From assembly GCA_015068305.1 (NCBI GenBank), contig SVKV01000005.1, positions 27,637 through 91,636 on the forward strand: DNA of 64,000 nt. Reading direction: 5' to 3'. The notes under the pieces were generated by a model that searched no databases, was not told the DNA's origin, and saw only the letters and a list, made by a program, of their open reading frames with translations. Shown piece by piece: positions 20,249 through 43,754 of this stretch (position 1 is its first letter; each line of letters begins with the position of its first letter). Position numbers and translations under genes: made by a program. This DNA is from Oscillospiraceae bacterium. GTDB lineage: Bacteria > Bacillota > Clostridia > Oscillospirales > Oscillospiraceae.

Positions 20249-20477
20249 TAAAAAAGCCCCGAAGCATAGCTTCAGGGCGAAAATTCCGCGGTACCACCTG
20301 ACTTCCCGAATAAACGGGCACTCAAACGCTGTAACGGGCTGACCCGGTCTTCCCTACTATCCTTTCAGAAAAACAGCTCCGGGGCGACAAACCGTTCAAC
20401 CCATTACCGCCTTGCACCGACCGGCGGCTCTCTGAAACAGGTTTTGAGCGGAAACTCCCCTTCTATGCCTTTAACTT
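20249..20477 (-). ncRNA. T-box leader of valS
   Basis: Minus strand: AGAGAGCCGCCGGTCGGTGCAAGGCGG stem I elements, antiterminator TGGTACCGCGG, terminator GCCCTGAAGCTATGCTTCGGGGCTTTTTT; candidate GTC (Val) specifier in GAACGGTTTGTCGCCCCGGAGCTG. Confidence 0.95.
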
Positions 20478-29651: not shown

Positions 29652-30584
29652 TTATTGGGCTGCGCTGCCGATCAGTTGGATCAGCTTATCGCGCAGAAAA
29701 CTTACATTCTTTTCATCCAGGACCGTATCCTTTTTGGTATGGATCCTGCCGCAGTAAAGACCTGCCCATTTGCTCCTGCGGAAGGCGGCAATACCAACGC
29801 CGGAGGGGAAATTTTTCTGATCGGAGGGATAATAGGCAAAACCCTTTTCCCGAAGCGCCAGACTCTTTCCTTCTCCTTCACCGCAGATGCTTCGCAGCGC
29901 GTCCATCTGCAGGGCATCCTGCTTTGTTTTCTTATTGGGGAACAACATCAGCTCATCGCCGTCGCCGACACAGTCGCAGTTGAGAATGATCTGATCCTTG
30001 ATCTGCTTTTTGTGGGCGCTTGCATAGGATGCAGAGCCGATCAGACCTGCTTCTTCCAGGTCAAACAGGACGAAGCAGACCTGTTCTCTCAGTTCTGCCG
30101 GCAGTGATTTTGCGGTTTCCAGAACCGTCACCACGCCGGAGGTATTGTCATTGGCATTATGCTTATTGGCAGGGCCAACCATCATCAACACAAGAAATAT
30201 CCAGACCGACATATATCCGGACCAATAACCCAGAAAGCTGTCCCGGGTCAGCAGATAAACGGCAGCACCCACTATGCCCACCATTGCAAACATGAACGCG
30301 ACTACAAACAGCTGGTAGGCCATAAATGCCCAGAAATTGCAGGGTGTGATCAGATTGGGAAAAGGCAGCCGGGCCGGGGTGTCATAATGGGCGGTCACCA
30401 GATATTTAGCCGTTTCCGGGTTGCCGATCAGCAGATTCTTTGCACCAAAGCTTCCTTTTTCCACATTCACAGCATATCCAAGTCCTTCGCCATAGGACTG
30501 AACCGCATCCCGGAAGGCCTGTTTCTGTTTCTTATTCTTGCGCACAGGAAATGCATTTAAAACATCCATGGGATTTTCGATCAT
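29652..30584 (-). CDS. Membrane-associated M28 family peptidase
   Basis: [33 protein letters not shown] and several TM segments. Confidence 0.85.
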
Positions 30585-30603: not shown

Positions 30604-30864
30604 GAAAAAACGCCCCCTGTCCTTTCGGACAGAGGGCGTGAAAATTACGCGGTACCACCTCTGGTTCATCTGCATCTCACAATACAGACCTCACGGCGTC
30701 CAACAACGCCTCTCGCTGTTTCGGGCGACCCCGTCCTCCCCTACTGTCATTTCAGGCAGGCCACTCCGGGAGGTATTTCAGCGGTTTTTCCCACTGCCTT
30801 GCACCAACCGGCAGCTCTCTGGCGGAAAAGGGGTCGCTTACTTCGTCCCTTCGTCGTGTTTACT
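30604..30864 (-). ncRNA. T-box leader upstream of the M28 peptidase-tyrS operon
   Basis: Minus strand: AGAGAGCTGCCGGTTGGTGCAAGGCAG, candidate TAC (Tyr) specifier in TGAAATACCTCCCGGAG, antiterminator TGGTACCGCGT, terminator CGCCCTCTGTCCGAAAGGACAGGGGGCGTTTTTT. Confidence 0.95.
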
Positions 30865-31319: not shown

Positions 31320-31514
31320 TTATGATTCCGATTTTGAAGATTTTGCCTTCATTGCAGCAAGAACTGCGAATTCAATGCACAAAACTGCAATAATCAGATA
31401 AAAGATCACACGGCCGTATTCCATAAACTGAAAGGCCACAATGGTCATTACAAGGCCAAAAACACCGCCGGCGGCACATAGGAAAGCCAGAAGACCCCAA
31501 AGAATTTTAATCAT
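31320..31514 (-). CDS. Small hypothetical membrane protein (64 aa)
   Basis: MIKILWGLLAFLCAAGGVFGLVMTIVAFQFMEYGRVIFYLIIAVLCIEFAVLAAMKAKSSKSES; start overlaps the recN stop. Confidence 0.65.
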   Translation of the reverse strand: MIKILWGLLAFLCAAGGVFGLVMTIVAFQFMEYGRVIFYLIIAVLCIEFAVLAAMKAKSSKSES

Positions 31515-33159
31515 TATGGAGCATCTCCTCCGCACTCTTGAGGGTCGTTTCGGTGATATTGGCACCGCCGATAATCCGGGCAAGCTCCTTCTTTCTGCCT
31601 TCCAGGTCCAGAGGTGTGACAGTTGTATAAGTACGTCCATCCCGCTCGCCCTTGGCGATCAGCAGATGGGTATCACCCATGGCCGCCAGCTGAGGAAGAT
31701 GCGTGACACAAAGAACCTGCTTGGATCGGGCCACACTCTTGAGCTTTTCCGCAACCTTCTGGGCAGCCCGGCCGGAAACACCGGTATCCACCTCATCAAA
31801 GATCAGCGTATCCACCTTATCCTGCTCAGCCAGAACATTCTTCATGGCAAGCATGATCCGGGCCAGCTCACCGCCGGAGGCGACCTTGCTCATGGGCTTT
31901 AATGCTTCGCCCACATTGGCAGACATATAGAAGGCCACCGCATCAGCGCCAAGTGCCGTAAGCTCCAGCTCAGAAAACCGGCAGGCAAACTGAACCTTGG
32001 GCATATCCAACTGGGCAAGCTCCGTCAAAATCCGTTCAGAAAGCCTTTCAGCCGTTTCTTTGCGGTTTTCCCGGAGGATCAAAGCTGCATCCCAGGCTTC
32101 CTTTTCGGCCTTCTTCAGCTTCTTTTTCAGCCGCTCGATATGATCGTCCGCAAATTCAATCTCATCCAGCTCCTGTTTTGCCTTTTCCTGGTATGCCAGA
32201 ATGTCAGCACAGGTGGTGCCGTACTTCCGCCGGAGCTTATGAATTACATCCAGACGGGACTCGATTTCATCCAATTCATCACCGGAATAGGACAGCTCAT
32301 ACTGCACATCCCGGGCCAATTCCGCCGCATCCTGGACCTGGTACATAAGGTCGGCCACTTTTTCATGCAGCTGGGCAATCTGGTCGCTGAATTTGGAAAC
32401 CCGAGCCAAAGCCCGCTCTGCAGTGGCAAGCAACGATGCCGCGCCGTCGGTATCGTCACCGCCGTAGAGATTTTCCACCGCATCATTGAGCCCGTTGGCG
32501 ATTTTTTCGGCATTCTGCAGGAGCTTCCGGCGGGATTCCAGCTCCTCGTCCTCCCCTGCTTCCAGATTGGCTTTCTCAATCTCCCCGATCTGATACTTTA
32601 GCGTTTCCATCCGGCGAAGCTTTTCGCCTTCGTCCATGCTCATGCGGTTGATTTCTTTTCTCAGCTTATCCACCGCAGTATATTTTTCCAGATATTGGGC
32701 CCGCAGTTCCTCATTGGCTGCAAAATCATCCAGGAATGTCAGGTGATTGGCTTCATCAAACAGGGATGCCGAATCATGCTGACCGTGGATATTGATCAGC
32801 TGAATGCCCAGCTTACTCAGAATCGATACGGTCACCAGACTTCCGTTGACCCGGCAGACATTCTTTCCGTCCAGGTGGATTTCCCGCTGGATGATGGTCT
32901 CCGGATCGTACTCCACACCGTTTTCTTCAAACCAGGAAAGTTTGGGAACTCCGGTAAAAACAGCCCGGACGGAAGCCTTGGCGGTTCCGGTCCGGATCAT
33001 ATCCCGGTAAGCCCGCTGACCCAGAATGGCAGAAATCGCATCGATCACAATGGATTTACCTGCACCGGTCTCACCGGTGAGCACATTAAAACCCCGGTCA
33101 AAGGAAATGTCCGCACATTCAATGACCGCAATATTCTCAATATGCAGAAGACTCAGCAC
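31507..33159 (-). CDS. recN: DNA repair protein RecN
   Basis: MLSLLHIENIAVIECADISFDRGFNVLTGETGAGKSIVIDAI; DTLIFDEVDTGVSGRAAQKVAEKL. Confidence 0.97.
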   Translation of the reverse strand: MLSLLHIENIAVIECADISFDRGFNVLTGETGAGKSIVIDAISAILGQRAYRDMIRTGTAKASVRAVFTGVPKLSWFEENGVEYDPETIIQREIHLDGKNVCRVNGSLVTVSILSKLGIQLINIHGQHDSASLFDEANHLTFLDDFAANEELRAQYLEKYTAVDKLRKEINRMSMDEGEKLRRMETLKYQIGEIEKANLEAGEDEELESRRKLLQNAEKIANGLNDAVENLYGGDDTDGAASLLATAERALARVSKFSDQIAQLHEKVADLMYQVQDAAELARDVQYELSYSGDELDEIESRLDVIHKLRRKYGTTCADILAYQEKAKQELDEIEFADDHIERLKKKLKKAEKEAWDAALILRENRKETAERLSERILTELAQLDMPKVQFACRFSELELTALGADAVAFYMSANVGEALKPMSKVASGGELARIMLAMKNVLAEQDKVDTLIFDEVDTGVSGRAAQKVAEKLKSVARSKQVLCVTHLPQLAAMGDTHLLIAKGERDGRTYTTVTPLDLEGRKKELARIIGGANITETTLKSAEEMLHND

Positions 33160-33178
33160 GTCATTTCCCTCCCCGATA

Positions 33179-33637
33179 TTACTTCATCAGATTGCTGACC
33201 TCGCCGCAGAACTGAGCTGCCGCATTGGTATCGCGCATGACGACCATCACAGTATCGTCGCCGGCCAGTGTTCCCACGATCACACTCAGATTCATCGCAT
33301 CAATTGCAGATGCGGCGGCACCGGCAAGGCCGGGCATGGTGTGGATCACCACGATGTTCTGTGCATAATCATAACGGGTAACACACTCTCTGAAAATGGT
33401 ATTCAGACGACCGGAAAAAGTAGAAGGAACTTCCTTGGCAGCAGTGGTGTAGCGGTAGGTTCCCAGAGAAGTCAGTTCCTTGACAATCCGCAGTTCCTTG
33501 ATATCCCGGGAAATGGTTGCCTGGGTGCTGCGCACACCGGCCCGCTCCAGTTCCAGCAGCAGCTGTTCCTGGGTTTCCACATTGATTGTGGAGATGATTT
33601 CCAAAATTTTTGCCTGTCTTTGAGATTTCACTGCCAC
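33179..33637 (-). CDS. argR: Arginine repressor ArgR/AhrC
   Basis: 152 aa; STQATISRDIKELRIVKE winged-helix and VGTLAGDDTVMVV core domain. Confidence 0.93.
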   Translation of the reverse strand: MAVKSQRQAKILEIISTINVETQEQLLLELERAGVRSTQATISRDIKELRIVKELTSLGTYRYTTAAKEVPSTFSGRLNTIFRECVTRYDYAQNIVVIHTMPGLAGAAASAIDAMNLSVIVGTLAGDDTVMVVMRDTNAAAQFCGEVSNLMK

Positions 33638-33645
33638 TCCCTCTT

Positions 33646-34509
33646 TCAGATCTTCTTGAATTTCATATTGACCACATCGTAGAAACTGCGCTCTTTCAGT
33701 CGAATCAGCTTCGTTTCCAGATTACTCTTCTTAACCGTCACCACATCGCCCATGTTCAGCCGCAGAGATTTGCCGCCGTCCACGGACAGATAGGCGTTCC
33801 GGCGGGCATTCTGAACCAGCTCCACCGTAATGGTCCGCTTGTCAGATGCCACGATGCACCGGCTCATCACATCGTGGGCGCAGATGGGGGTGATGAGGAT
33901 ATTTCTTGCCTCCGGCTCCACAATGGGACCGCCGGCAGAAAGGCTGTAGGCTGTGGAACCGGTGGGTGTGGCGATGATCACACCGTCGCCGCCGCACTGC
34001 ATTGCCTCCACGCCGTCGCACTTGACCTGCAGGTAGGCAATCCGGGCAACAGCGCCCTTGGTAATTACCACATCATTCAGACCAATGTCGTGGAAGATAA
34101 TATCCCGGTCCCGCTGCACCACCACATCGATCATCATTCTTTTATCGAGAGTATACTCATCCTTTGCAAGCTTCGCCAGAAGGTTCAGTTCTGTGCTTTC
34201 CAGCTCTGCCATGAAGCCCAATGTGCCGCTGTTAACGCCGAGAATGGGCACATTCTTACGGGTGGCAGTCTTTGCCATGTGCAAAATGGTACCGTCGCCG
34301 CCGAAGCAGATTACCAGCTCAGCATTGTGGATCTCCCGGTCCAGCCGATGGAAGCGGATATCCTTAGGCAGTTCAAAGCTTTTGTCCACATCAAAGGGCA
34401 GGCAAACCTTCGTCTCCACGCCGGCGTCCCGGAGGATGCCCATGGCCGTCCGCACGGTCTGAAAATCCTTGTCCCGATATGGATTTGGTGTTAAAATCAC
34501 ACGTTTCAT
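33646..34509 (-). CDS. nadK: NAD kinase
   Basis: FGGDGTILHMAK, GVNSGTLGFMAE, GDGVIIATPTGSTAYSLSAGGPIV. Confidence 0.96.
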   Translation of the reverse strand: MKRVILTPNPYRDKDFQTVRTAMGILRDAGVETKVCLPFDVDKSFELPKDIRFHRLDREIHNAELVICFGGDGTILHMAKTATRKNVPILGVNSGTLGFMAELESTELNLLAKLAKDEYTLDKRMMIDVVVQRDRDIIFHDIGLNDVVITKGAVARIAYLQVKCDGVEAMQCGGDGVIIATPTGSTAYSLSAGGPIVEPEARNILITPICAHDVMSRCIVASDKRTITVELVQNARRNAYLSVDGGKSLRLNMGDVVTVKKSNLETKLIRLKERSFYDVVNMKFKKI

Positions 34510-34520
34510 GTGTTTCTACC

Positions 34521-35324
34521 TCAATTCAGCGTTTTATGTGCCTGGGCGACCACATCTGCGGTGTCCGGTTCCATTCCCGGCGTATCTGCCAGGGTCAGAT
34601 GTCCCAAAAACTCAATATTGCCCTCGGGCCCCTTAACAGGAGAGAAAGTAAGACCCAGGATTTTAAAGCCCAGTCCCTTCACCAGTGCCACGAAGTTATC
34701 CAGCACCATCTTGTGGATCTTCGGATCCCGGACAACGCCCTTCTTTCCTACATTTTCCTTGCCTGCTTCAAACTGGGGCTTGATCAGACACAGGACCTGG
34801 CCGCTGTCGGGTTTTAAGAGGGTCTTGATAGTAGGAAGAACGATTTCCAGGCCGATGAAGCTGACATCAATCACGGAAAGATCCAGGGGTTCTCCCAGAT
34901 CCTCCGGAGTCACATAGCGGATATTGGTCCGCTCCATGACCACCACCCGCTCGTCGGAGCGGATCTTCCAGTCCAGCTGGCCGTAACCGACGTCGATGGC
35001 AAAAACCTTCTTTGCACCCTGCTGCAGCAGGCAGTCGGTAAAACCGCCGGTGGAGGCACCGGAATCACTGCAAACATAGCCATCGGGCTTCACACCGAAA
35101 TCCCGAAGGGCTTTCTCCAGCTTCAGTCCGCCCCGACTTACATAGGGACAGACAGCGCCCCGGACTTCGATCTCCACTGTTTCTTCAAAGGCTGTGCCGG
35201 GCTTGTCCGCCTTCTGTCCGTTGACATAGACATTGCCGCTCATGATGATGGCCTGAGCTTTGGTGCGGCTGTCCGCATAGAGGCGCTCCACCAGCAGCAC
35301 ATCCAGTCTCTTCTTTATCTTCAA
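34521..35324 (-). CDS. tlyA: TlyA family rRNA (cytidine-2'-O)-methyltransferase
   Basis: S4 domain KKRLDVLLVERLYADSRTKAQAIIMSGNVYVNG plus DSGASTGGFTDCLLQQGAKKVFAIDVGYGQL. Confidence 0.95.
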   Translation of the reverse strand: MKIKKRLDVLLVERLYADSRTKAQAIIMSGNVYVNGQKADKPGTAFEETVEIEVRGAVCPYVSRGGLKLEKALRDFGVKPDGYVCSDSGASTGGFTDCLLQQGAKKVFAIDVGYGQLDWKIRSDERVVVMERTNIRYVTPEDLGEPLDLSVIDVSFIGLEIVLPTIKTLLKPDSGQVLCLIKPQFEAGKENVGKKGVVRDPKIHKMVLDNFVALVKGLGFKILGLTFSPVKGPEGNIEFLGHLTLADTPGMEPDTADVVAQAHKTLN

Positions 35325-37171
35325 GATTTCCGCACCTCCAGGAACCGGTCTGCAATGCCCGCTGCATCCAGACCGTGCTTTTCATAAAGCTTCGCAACTG
35401 TGCCGTGAGTCACATATTCTCTGCCCAGGTCGATTACAGCAGCACTGCTGTCCGGCAGAATCTGATGAATCATACAGGATAGATCGGCACCAAGTCCGCC
35501 GATAGCCTCCTCCGCGATCAGGATAACCTTCTGTCCGGCAAGGGCAGCTTCAAGCCTGCTTGCAGAAATGGGGTTCAGCTTTGTTAAACGGATCACGGAT
35601 ACAGACAGTCCCTGCTGCGCAAGGATATCTGCAGCCTCCAGGGCCTGGTTAATAAGAGTGCCGTAGGTAATGATCGCGCCATCTGTGCCTTGCCGATGGG
35701 ACACAACCCCGGAATCCGCATCCCAGCTAGACCCGGTGACAGCGCCGTCACCGCCCCTGGGATAGCGGACGGCAACAGGTCCGCTGCATTCTAAAACTGC
35801 CCAGCGGAGCATTTCTTTCAGTTCCTCCGTGCAGCAGGGCGCCAGGACCGTCATACCGGGAACCTGGCCCAGGAAGCCCACATCAAATACGCCGTGATGG
35901 GTCTCTCCGTCGTCCCCTACCAGACCCGCCCGGTCAACGGCCAGTACCACATGGAGCTTCAGCATGGAGATATCCTGCAAAATCTGGTCATAGGAGCGCT
36001 GCAGGAATGTGGAATAGATGGCCACCACCGGCACCATTCCCTGCTTTGCTAGTCCGCCTGCCATGGAGACCGCGTGCTCTTCCGCAATACCCACGTCAAA
36101 GAGCCGGTCAGGAAATTCCTTCCGGAAACCCAGCAGACCTGTACCACCAGGCATAGCCGCTGTGATGGCACATACCCGGTCATTTTCTTTCGCAATTTCA
36201 GTCAGTGTCTGACCGAACACGTCAGAAAAACTGACCGATTTTGCACCCAGCGTCTCGCCGGTTGCGGGATCAAACTTACCGATGCCGTGAAATTTGCTGG
36301 GCTGCTTCTCGGCAAACTCGTAGCCGTAGCCCTTCTTGGTCAGCACATGGACCAGAACCGGGGCATTCAGACCTCTTGCAGCCCGCAGAAGATCGATCAG
36401 ATCCGGCAGGTCATGGCCATCCACAGGGCCCAGATAGGTAAAGCCCATGTTTTCAAAAATAGTGGAAGGCAGGATCACTCTCTTAATCCGGTTCTTCAGA
36501 TTGCTGGTAAACCGGTAAAATGCACCGCCGCCGGGCATTTTCTTCAGAAAATTCCGGTAACGGATCTTAAACTTTAAATACTCATCGCTGGAGCGCAGCT
36601 TCGAAAGGTGCCTTGCTATGCCGCCCACGTTAGGATCAATGGACATGGCATTATCGTTGAGAATGATCACCATGGGCTCCTTGCTCACCGCGGCATCGTT
36701 CAGACCCTCATAGGCCATACCGCCGGTGGCGGCACCGTCGCCGATGACAGTTACCACGTTGTAATCCTGCTTCTGCAGCGTTCTGGCCCGGGCCATACCC
36801 AGGGCAATGGAAACAGAGCTGGAGGCATGACCGGCAACAAAAGCATCGCTCTGGCTCTCGTTGGGTTTGGGGAATCCGGAGATTCCGCCGAACTGCCGAA
36901 GATGCTCAAAATCCGCCTGGCGTCCGGTCAGAATCTTATGGACATAAGACTGATGACCCACATCAAATACCAGGCGGTCTTTCATTGTATCAAAAACGGT
37001 CTCGATGGCAACAGAAAGCTCCACAATTCCCAAATTAGAGGCCAGGTGGCCACCCGTCCTGGAAACACTGCTTACCAAAAATTCACGGATTTCTGAACAC
37101 AGCAGGGCTCTTTCTTCATCGTTTAACTTAACAAGATCATCATGACCGCCGATATTCGGTAAAATATGCAC
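35321..37171 (-). CDS. dxs: 1-deoxy-D-xylulose-5-phosphate synthase
   Basis: 616 aa; GHQSYVHKILTGR, IGDGAATGGMAYEGLND, AEEHAVSMAGGLA. Confidence 0.97.
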   Translation of the reverse strand: MHILPNIGGHDDLVKLNDEERALLCSEIREFLVSSVSRTGGHLASNLGIVELSVAIETVFDTMKDRLVFDVGHQSYVHKILTGRQADFEHLRQFGGISGFPKPNESQSDAFVAGHASSSVSIALGMARARTLQKQDYNVVTVIGDGAATGGMAYEGLNDAAVSKEPMVIILNDNAMSIDPNVGGIARHLSKLRSSDEYLKFKIRYRNFLKKMPGGGAFYRFTSNLKNRIKRVILPSTIFENMGFTYLGPVDGHDLPDLIDLLRAARGLNAPVLVHVLTKKGYGYEFAEKQPSKFHGIGKFDPATGETLGAKSVSFSDVFGQTLTEIAKENDRVCAITAAMPGGTGLLGFRKEFPDRLFDVGIAEEHAVSMAGGLAKQGMVPVVAIYSTFLQRSYDQILQDISMLKLHVVLAVDRAGLVGDDGETHHGVFDVGFLGQVPGMTVLAPCCTEELKEMLRWAVLECSGPVAVRYPRGGDGAVTGSSWDADSGVVSHRQGTDGAIITYGTLINQALEAADILAQQGLSVSVIRLTKLNPISASRLEAALAGQKVILIAEEAIGGLGADLSCMIHQILPDSSAAVIDLGREYVTHGTVAKLYEKHGLDAAGIADRFLEVRKS

Positions 37172-37186
37172 GTATCAACACGACCT

Positions 37187-37780
37187 TTATTTCTTAGTTT
37201 TCTTTTTCCGGAACAGATCCGGCACATGGTTCAGCCAGTAAATCAGCTTACCGACGGTGTGAACAATTTCGGTGGCGGAATTCACCGCAAAGGTTTTGCC
37301 GATGGCCTTGCCGCCCACCGTCAGACCGGCACAGAGTGCAGACATCAGCAGAGAAATAATCTGAGGCCATCCGAAATCCATGCTGCGCAGAATCTGGGCA
37401 GCGATGGTTGCAGAAGCAGAGCCGGAAACAACGCCGCAGATATCGCCCACCACGTCATTGCAGATGGAACTGACCCGCTCCGCATTCCGCAGGAGTCTGA
37501 TGGAAGCCTGGGCACCGGGCACTTTCCGGGCAGCCATGGAATGGAAAGGTTTTTCGTCGGCAGTGGCAACAGCCATGCCGATGATATCAAAGATAATACC
37601 CACAAGAATGATGGCCAGCAGGATCAAAAAAGCGGTAACGATACCGCTTTTAGCCATCACTTCGTCAGAAATGAACGAAATGGTACCGGAAATGACAATG
37701 GTAACCAAAAAAATGGTGACGACCCAACGGATCGTCTTGTTCCGCTCCTTTTTTATGGCAGCGGGATCAGACTTAGACAC
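37187..37780 (-). CDS. oapA: OLE-associated protein OapA-like multi-pass membrane protein (197 aa)
   Basis: TM-rich, IISLLMSALCAGLTVGGKAIGK, RNAERVSSICNDVVGDICGVVSGSASATIAAQI; immediately downstream of the putative OLE RNA and upstream of dxs, the arrangement known for OapA. Confidence 0.85.
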   Translation of the reverse strand: MSKSDPAAIKKERNKTIRWVVTIFLVTIVISGTISFISDEVMAKSGIVTAFLILLAIILVGIIFDIIGMAVATADEKPFHSMAARKVPGAQASIRLLRNAERVSSICNDVVGDICGVVSGSASATIAAQILRSMDFGWPQIISLLMSALCAGLTVGGKAIGKTFAVNSATEIVHTVGKLIYWLNHVPDLFRKKKTKK

Positions 37781-37807
37781 GAGAATTACCTCTTTGGATT
37801 TTTTAAT

Positions 37808-38420
37808 GGGAGACGGCAGCAGACAGGATAAATCTTACGGCTTAGGTCGGGTTGTCTTTCACCGCAAAGAACCTGTCGTTGCCGCACAGGCCGTTTCCAT
37901 TTAATCCCTGCGCTCATGCGTCGCCGCCATGAGTACCCGATTGCCACTGAGACCGTACTGTAATCCCCTGTCTGCCCAATTACGACAGCCTAGGTGTTTT
38001 CCACGACAAAGTGATCCATAGTCTTAGCCTCTTTTGCAAGGATGGTTTCCAGAGGCAATGAAGACAGACGCTTGGCCGAGCGTTCAGTCAACTGGTCCTC
38101 TTTCCCCGCATACTCACTCAAGGCAGGCTACACTGCACGTAGCACACGATTCTGTGCACCACTTTGCAGGTTCTTTTCCCGGCCCGTACGCGATGGGATC
38201 CCGCTAGGGACATTTCCCTCGTCGCACAATACCAGGTCTCCACGGAAAACGGGTCGTATGCTCCATGCCATTGGGGCGCGCCCGTAATCCTTAACCCCCA
38301 GCACCCACCCTAAACTGGGCGTAAAAAGCAGGCACCAGGGACTTCATCGATGTGCCCTTCAAAGGATTTTTAGGCCCTTCCTGGAAGATGGTCACCCCGA
38401 CTAGGATACTGCACCGTCGG
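37808..38420 (-). ncRNA. OLE (ornate, large, extremophilic) RNA, ~610 nt
   Basis: ~610-nt noncoding interval with own promoter. Minus strand begins GACGGTGCAGTATCCTAGTCGGGGTGACC and ends ...AAACGGCCTGTGCGGCAACGACAGGTTCTTTGCGGTGAAAGACAACCCGACCTAAGCCGTAAG. Length, many local stems and the ole-oapA-dxs-tlyA synteny match OLE. Confidence 0.88.
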
Positions 38421-38425
38421 AATAA

Positions 38426-38454
38426 ATCATAACACATTCTGAATGAATATACAA
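38426..38454 (-). promoter_or_regulatory. Promoter of the putative OLE RNA
   Basis: Minus strand TTGTAT-N17-TATGAT, ~7 nt before the structured region. Confidence 0.7.
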
Positions 38455-43406: not shown

Positions 43407-43754
43407 GGGGCCGTACTGGTTTCGACGGGGGTAGTGAGGCTGGATAAGCGGGCCGCGGCGCCTGACCGCGATAAAACGGGTACCTTTTAAATTTAACTGA
43501 CAACAATACTGTTGCTCTGGCTGCCTAATTAGGCGCCCATCCGCCCCGGAAGGTCCACGAGCCGGGCTCGGGTGTGATTTGAGTGGAGACCGTGCGTATG
43601 CAAAGCTTTGAGCATACCATGCATCATGAAGCTACTGATTCCCGGAGCGTGTCTGTTCACGCCGGGTTGAGGGAATGTAAATAACAGACTGCGCCCGGAG
43701 AAAGTCTTTCCAAGTTATTTTCGGACAGGGGTTCGATTCCCCTCGGCTCCACCA
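43407..43754 (+). ncRNA. ssrA: Transfer-messenger RNA; encoded tag DNNTVALAA (plus Ala from the charged CCA end)
   Basis: GGGGCCGTACTGGTTTCGACGGGG 5' end; GACAGGGGTTCGATTCCCCTCGGCTCCACCA 3' end pairing to GGGGCCG; tag ORF gac aac aat act gtt gct ctg gct gcc taa (43499-43528). Confidence 0.97.

Follow-up and report, generated by a model that had tools for sequence, protein, structure and literature searches.

An OapA-family protein encoded directly behind OLE RNA in an Oscillospiraceae bacterium, and its relation to CNNM proteins

OLE RNA ranks, to our knowledge, among the largest of those structured RNAs of bacteria whose biochemical function is not known. Its constant partner is OapA, described as a protein of four transmembrane helices with a cytoplasmic cluster of basic residues. 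The 64,000-nucleotide stretch of Oscillospiraceae DNA analysed here (the window) carries an OLE RNA followed at once by a gene for a small protein with hydrophobic segments, which raises the question of whether this protein is OapA, as a preliminary description had suggested, or a membrane protein found beside the RNA for some other reason.

The ole-oapA locus and the identity of its product

The open reading frame lies exactly where the preliminary description placed it and encodes 197 amino acids on the minus strand (Table 1); the gene is found in 42 other genomes of the family sample considered below, and the peptide quoted in the preliminary description (RNAERVSSICNDVVGDICGVVSGSASATIAAQI) is indeed part of its translation. 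A ribosome-binding-like AAAGAGG lies a few bases 5' of the GTG start. The OLE RNA match spans model positions 1–616 of 616 (446.4 bits, E 8.6e-128 by cmscan, against an Rfam cut-off of 50) and ends 16 nt before the oapA start codon. On the minus strand, dxs begins 15 nt after oapA, and RNA, oapA and dxs share one orientation, as described earlier (names of neighboring genes in the window were assigned by reading translations). Promoter and terminator scans around the OLE RNA performed no better than on shuffled sequence, and we therefore make no claim of a separate promoter for OLE. The ortholog in the congener G049 is 74% identical at the protein level, with 42, 25 and 102 nucleotide changes at codon positions 1, 2 and 3, respectively, and with dN ~0.19 and dS ~1.5 (dN/dS ~0.12). 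Judged from this third-position bias and these rates, oapA is a real gene under purifying selection.

Table 1. Features of the ole-oapA locus (window positions; residues counted with the start Met as 1)
Feature	Position	Strand	Basis or remark
oapA ORF	37187..37780	-	197 aa, GTG start, stop included; ORF call, BLASTP, conserved family, purifying selection
OLE RNA (RF01071), full length	37797..38433	-	immediately 5' of oapA; cmscan
dxs, gene 3' of oapA	35321..37171	-	ORF
tlyA-like, nadK, argR, recN (remainder of conserved cluster)	31507..35324	-	ORFs; kept order
Conserved core RNAERVSSICNDVVGDICGVVSG (residues 98-120)	37421..37489	-	best-conserved stretch of 42-sequence alignment
DxxxD motif D109-V-V-G-D113	37442..37456	-	both Asp invariant in 42 sequences
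Hydrophobic segment 1 (about residues 19-38)	37667..37726	-	Kyte-Doolittle window maximum ~2.3
Hydrophobic segment 2 (about residues 46-69)	37574..37645	-	Kyte-Doolittle window maximum ~3.1
Hydrophobic segment 3, weaker (about residues 110-132)	37385..37453	-	Kyte-Doolittle ~1.5; family average 1.75
Hydrophobic segment 4, weaker (about residues 137-160)	37301..37372	-	Kyte-Doolittle ~1.6; ends at invariant K158

Elsewhere in the window, a tmRNA gene (43407-43754, plus strand, 150 bits) follows smpB and a gene for a peptidyl-prolyl isomerase, an arrangement kept in two congeners. Two T-box leaders are present on the minus strand (20270-20474 and 30629-30863), and the latter precedes a gene for a peptidase-like membrane protein (29652-30584).

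For identification, a protein family was built from genomes related to the window, and its profile was then run on a set of named genomes. A generic KOW-protein sequence, used solely to query the Protein Data Bank, led to OLE-associated protein B (entry 7k9b), the letters of which pointed to the Halalkalibacterium halodurans genome (L114, 99% match) among the named genomes. This genome contains a single match to the window-family profile (E 1.1e-58), located directly 3' of the OLE RNA of that species (538.6 bits). In a direct BLASTP comparison, the window protein and this H. halodurans OapA are orthologs, with 39% of residues identical and 64% similar across 188 aligned amino acids (E 2e-49). 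The preliminary description had called the gene an OapA-like partner directly downstream of the OLE RNA and had named comparison with OapA beforehand as the test by which this could be refuted; the proposal came through that test. The same pairing of OLE RNA and OapA occurs in six further Bacillales genomes of the named set, while Paenibacillus helianthi, in which OapB is present, gave no OapA match with the family profile. Across 30 family members, 30 alignment columns are invariant, and these are concentrated in the non-hydrophobic core.

On the window protein, every Pfam and NCBIfam model stays below its cut-off, so that routine annotation would miss this OapA and leave it hypothetical, as had been foreseen; the same libraries return spurious weak matches to many membrane families (E 0.002-1). 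Among Protein Data Bank sequences, a 42-sequence OapA profile had no match up to E 10 (hmmsearch) and the window protein retrieved nothing by phmmer, and no OapA relative was found in the viral contigs scanned. Based on homology, the window gene is almost certainly oapA, whose product would bind OLE RNA and hold it at the membrane. The OapA/OLE ribonucleoprotein is a known system, and the window protein is an additional member of a known family, one that was unnamed in the annotation libraries and now gains a firm identity.

Linkage and strict co-occurrence with OLE RNA

Among 151 genomes drawn from the family of the window organism, 43 carry OapA and 43 carry OLE RNA, and these are the same 43 genomes. 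In every one of these 43 genomes the RNA lies upstream of oapA on the same contig and strand, with a median gap of 74 nt. The outlier is a gap of 2.5 kb in G029, in which a gene for a 786-amino-acid protein resembling a solute-binding lipoprotein (L217, 1594-3954) splits OLE RNA from oapA, the sole interruption among the 43.

By contrast, dxs is always present, whether or not OLE RNA and OapA are. In the congener G136 (contig C3, L213), the locus is syntenic from a NUDIX gene to recN without ole-oapA; the interval between the NUDIX gene and dxs measures only 240 nt (L213, 5501-5742) and contains no trace of OLE. Since both are cleanly absent here, gain or loss affects OLE RNA and OapA together, as a single unit.

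Most of the gene order oapA-dxs-tlyA-nadK-argR-recN is retained in a set of 20 genomes from the phylum. In two of these (loci L106 and L108, from G187 and G325), tlyA stands directly 3' of oapA with no dxs match between them. A genome of 72% G+C (G459, L097) retains the order ole-oapA-dxs-tlyA-argR-recN, which suggests that this arrangement is old.

Signature residues, CNNM kinship and alternative readings

In an alignment of 42 OapA sequences drawn phylum-wide, residues D109, D113, A100, G112, G120, K158 and K162 of the window protein are invariant (42/42). The DxxxD motif is distinctive of OapA, the other difference from CNNM domains being that a conserved proline has been lost (Fernando and Breaker, 2024, PMC11332333). 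This proline is absent here as well: when the profiles are aligned, GKAIGK takes the place of the GEVTPK of CNNM. The Pfam CNNM model (PF01595) is matched at E<=0.01 by 26 of the 42 OapA sequences (best 5e-7), and profile-profile comparison by hhalign gives E 1.6e-5 with a probability of 79%, while the window protein alone scores 12.4 bits (E 0.13) against a cut-off of 28.4. As judged from these profiles, the relationship of OapA to the CNNM (DUF21) transmembrane domain is distant but visible. In human CNNM4, N250 and N254 are Mg2+-binding asparagines (table in PMC11855589), and the DxxxD pair may fall near the corresponding region, which is only suggestive as the local alignment is gapped there.

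Basic residues are in excess in both tails of the window protein and in the stretch preceding the DxxxD core. The four hydrophobic segments fit, but do not prove, an arrangement of four membrane helices; a single-sequence AlphaFold2 model had unusably low confidence (pLDDT 46.5, pTM 0.27) and did not confirm a CNNM-like fold.

The distant CNNM relationship, together with the anticorrelation of OLE/OapA with full CNNM proteins described below, as if the two shared a job, could be taken to mean that the gene encodes a stand-alone CNNM-type Mg2+ transporter that sits beside OLE RNA by chance and works without it. This is very unlikely, since OapA was never found without OLE RNA in the 151 genomes and was always linked to it, and since the CNNM signature GE..PK is changed to GK..GK whereas the OapA-only DxxxD is present. 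Transporters of the MpfA/CNNM type have a CNNM domain followed by a CBS pair and a CorC domain; the window protein has a CNNM score below cut-off and ends at 197 amino acids, with neither CBS nor CorC. Moreover, OLE loss and OapA loss share phenotypes in H. halodurans (PMC11332333), which also argues against an RNA-independent transporter.

There is still less to be said for an unrelated small membrane protein of the conserved dxs operon whose similarity to OapA merely reflects hydrophobic composition. Although low-complexity hydrophobic segments and the weak matches to many membrane families would fit such a protein, the invariant columns lie mostly in the non-hydrophobic core, the match to H. 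halodurans OapA reaches E 2e-49, and the gene comes and goes with OLE RNA while dxs stays; the alignment has already refuted this explanation. Equally improbable is a degraded or non-functional copy of oapA, a suspicion that the fragmented, 95%-complete assembly and the failure to find OapB and OapC might raise, because the frame is intact, every signature residue is kept, dN/dS against the congener is low (~0.12) and a full-length OLE RNA adjoins the gene.

Proposed role and comparison with known systems

In H. halodurans, OapA binds OLE RNA cooperatively, with two or more proteins per RNA, and is needed for membrane localization, and loss of the OLE complex makes cells sensitive to cold, alcohols, Mg2+ and poor carbon sources (PMC12265935; PMC11332333); losing either OLE or OapA leads to the same phenotypes (PMC11332333). 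By orthology, the role in the window organism is most likely the same. We hypothesize that OapA, as a small integral membrane protein and distant kin of the CNNM (DUF21) domain of MpfA/CorB-type magnesium transporters, binds as a dimer to the OLE RNA, whose gene ends 16 nt upstream, and anchors it at the membrane as the core of the OLE ribonucleoprotein, and that the complex may help cells to withstand excess Mg2+, cold, alcohols and poor carbon sources. In this model, RNA binding, dimerization, membrane localization and stress tolerance are all carried over from H. halodurans. That OapA might move or sense divalent metal ions is hypothetical, in the literature too. The anchoring of OLE RNA by OapA, which the preliminary description offered as a functional hypothesis, is inherited knowledge, already published for H. 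halodurans, rather than a new proposal.

Full CNNM proteins, defined as CNNM-domain proteins with E<1e-20, are encoded by 9 of the 43 genomes with OLE RNA and by 100 of the 108 without it (Fisher p 5e-18, without correction for shared ancestry). In the genome that contains the window, the sole CNNM match is weak (E 6.4e-4), and a match of this strength is expected from OapA itself. An anticorrelation between OLE/OapA and MpfA at the phylum level has been published earlier (PMC11332333), and the Bacillota-wide pattern is recovered here within a single family and among species that share a genus. Five genera contain both OLE states (g1, g11, g53, g60 and g62), and in each the OLE-negative species encodes a full CNNM protein that an OLE-positive one lacks, although five pairs are few and the OLE-positive G143 is only 67% complete. 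Within g1, the window's own genome (G000) lacks a full CNNM protein, while the OLE-positive G049 has one. The congener G136 encodes two full CNNM proteins elsewhere in its genome. We tentatively consider it possible, with some doubt, that ole-oapA and full CNNM/MpfA proteins take each other's place in this family, down to species within one genus; if true, an RNA-protein device and an all-protein device would do the same job and be swappable. The comparison of close relatives is the novel part, a modest addition, and such same-genus species form natural, closely matched pairs in which to ask whether the work of the OLE complex is taken over by MpfA-type proteins.

The OLE ribonucleoprotein complex comprises OLE RNA, OapA, OapB and OapC. 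OapB, a KOW protein, is essential in H. halodurans and occurs in about 60% of species with OLE, and OapC, of the L7Ae type, in about 45%. The window resembles this system in its full-length OLE RNA and in the position of oapA near dxs, argR and recN, and differs from it in that OapB and OapC are without a match in an incomplete genome. No OapB match was found in the window's 95%-complete assembly (G000), which appears to lack the ribosomal adk-map-infA operon expected to hold the gene; in the congener G049, OapB (E 5e-9) lies within that operon. A Pfam KOW search of the window's genome returned no KOW protein at all and is thus uninformative for OapB. The apparent absence of the operon shows in the best match of this assembly to a same-genus Map query, which is only 27% identical. 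For OapC, the window's 95%-complete genome has no PF01248 match, for which an assembly gap is a possible cause.

MpfA, CorB and CorC transporters (CNNM, DUF21) resemble OapA distantly, at the profile level, across the membrane domain, and the two occur in a complementary pattern. Unlike these transporters, the window protein is without CBS or CorC domains and without the CNNM proline, carries DxxxD, and is tied to an RNA gene. The closest counterpart is OapA of H. halodurans, from which the window protein differs in the lengths of the basic N-terminal tail (longer) and of the loop between hydrophobic segments 3 and 4 (shorter), and with which it shares orthologous sequence, the position directly behind OLE RNA, the DxxxD motif, a similar size and a basic C-terminal tail.
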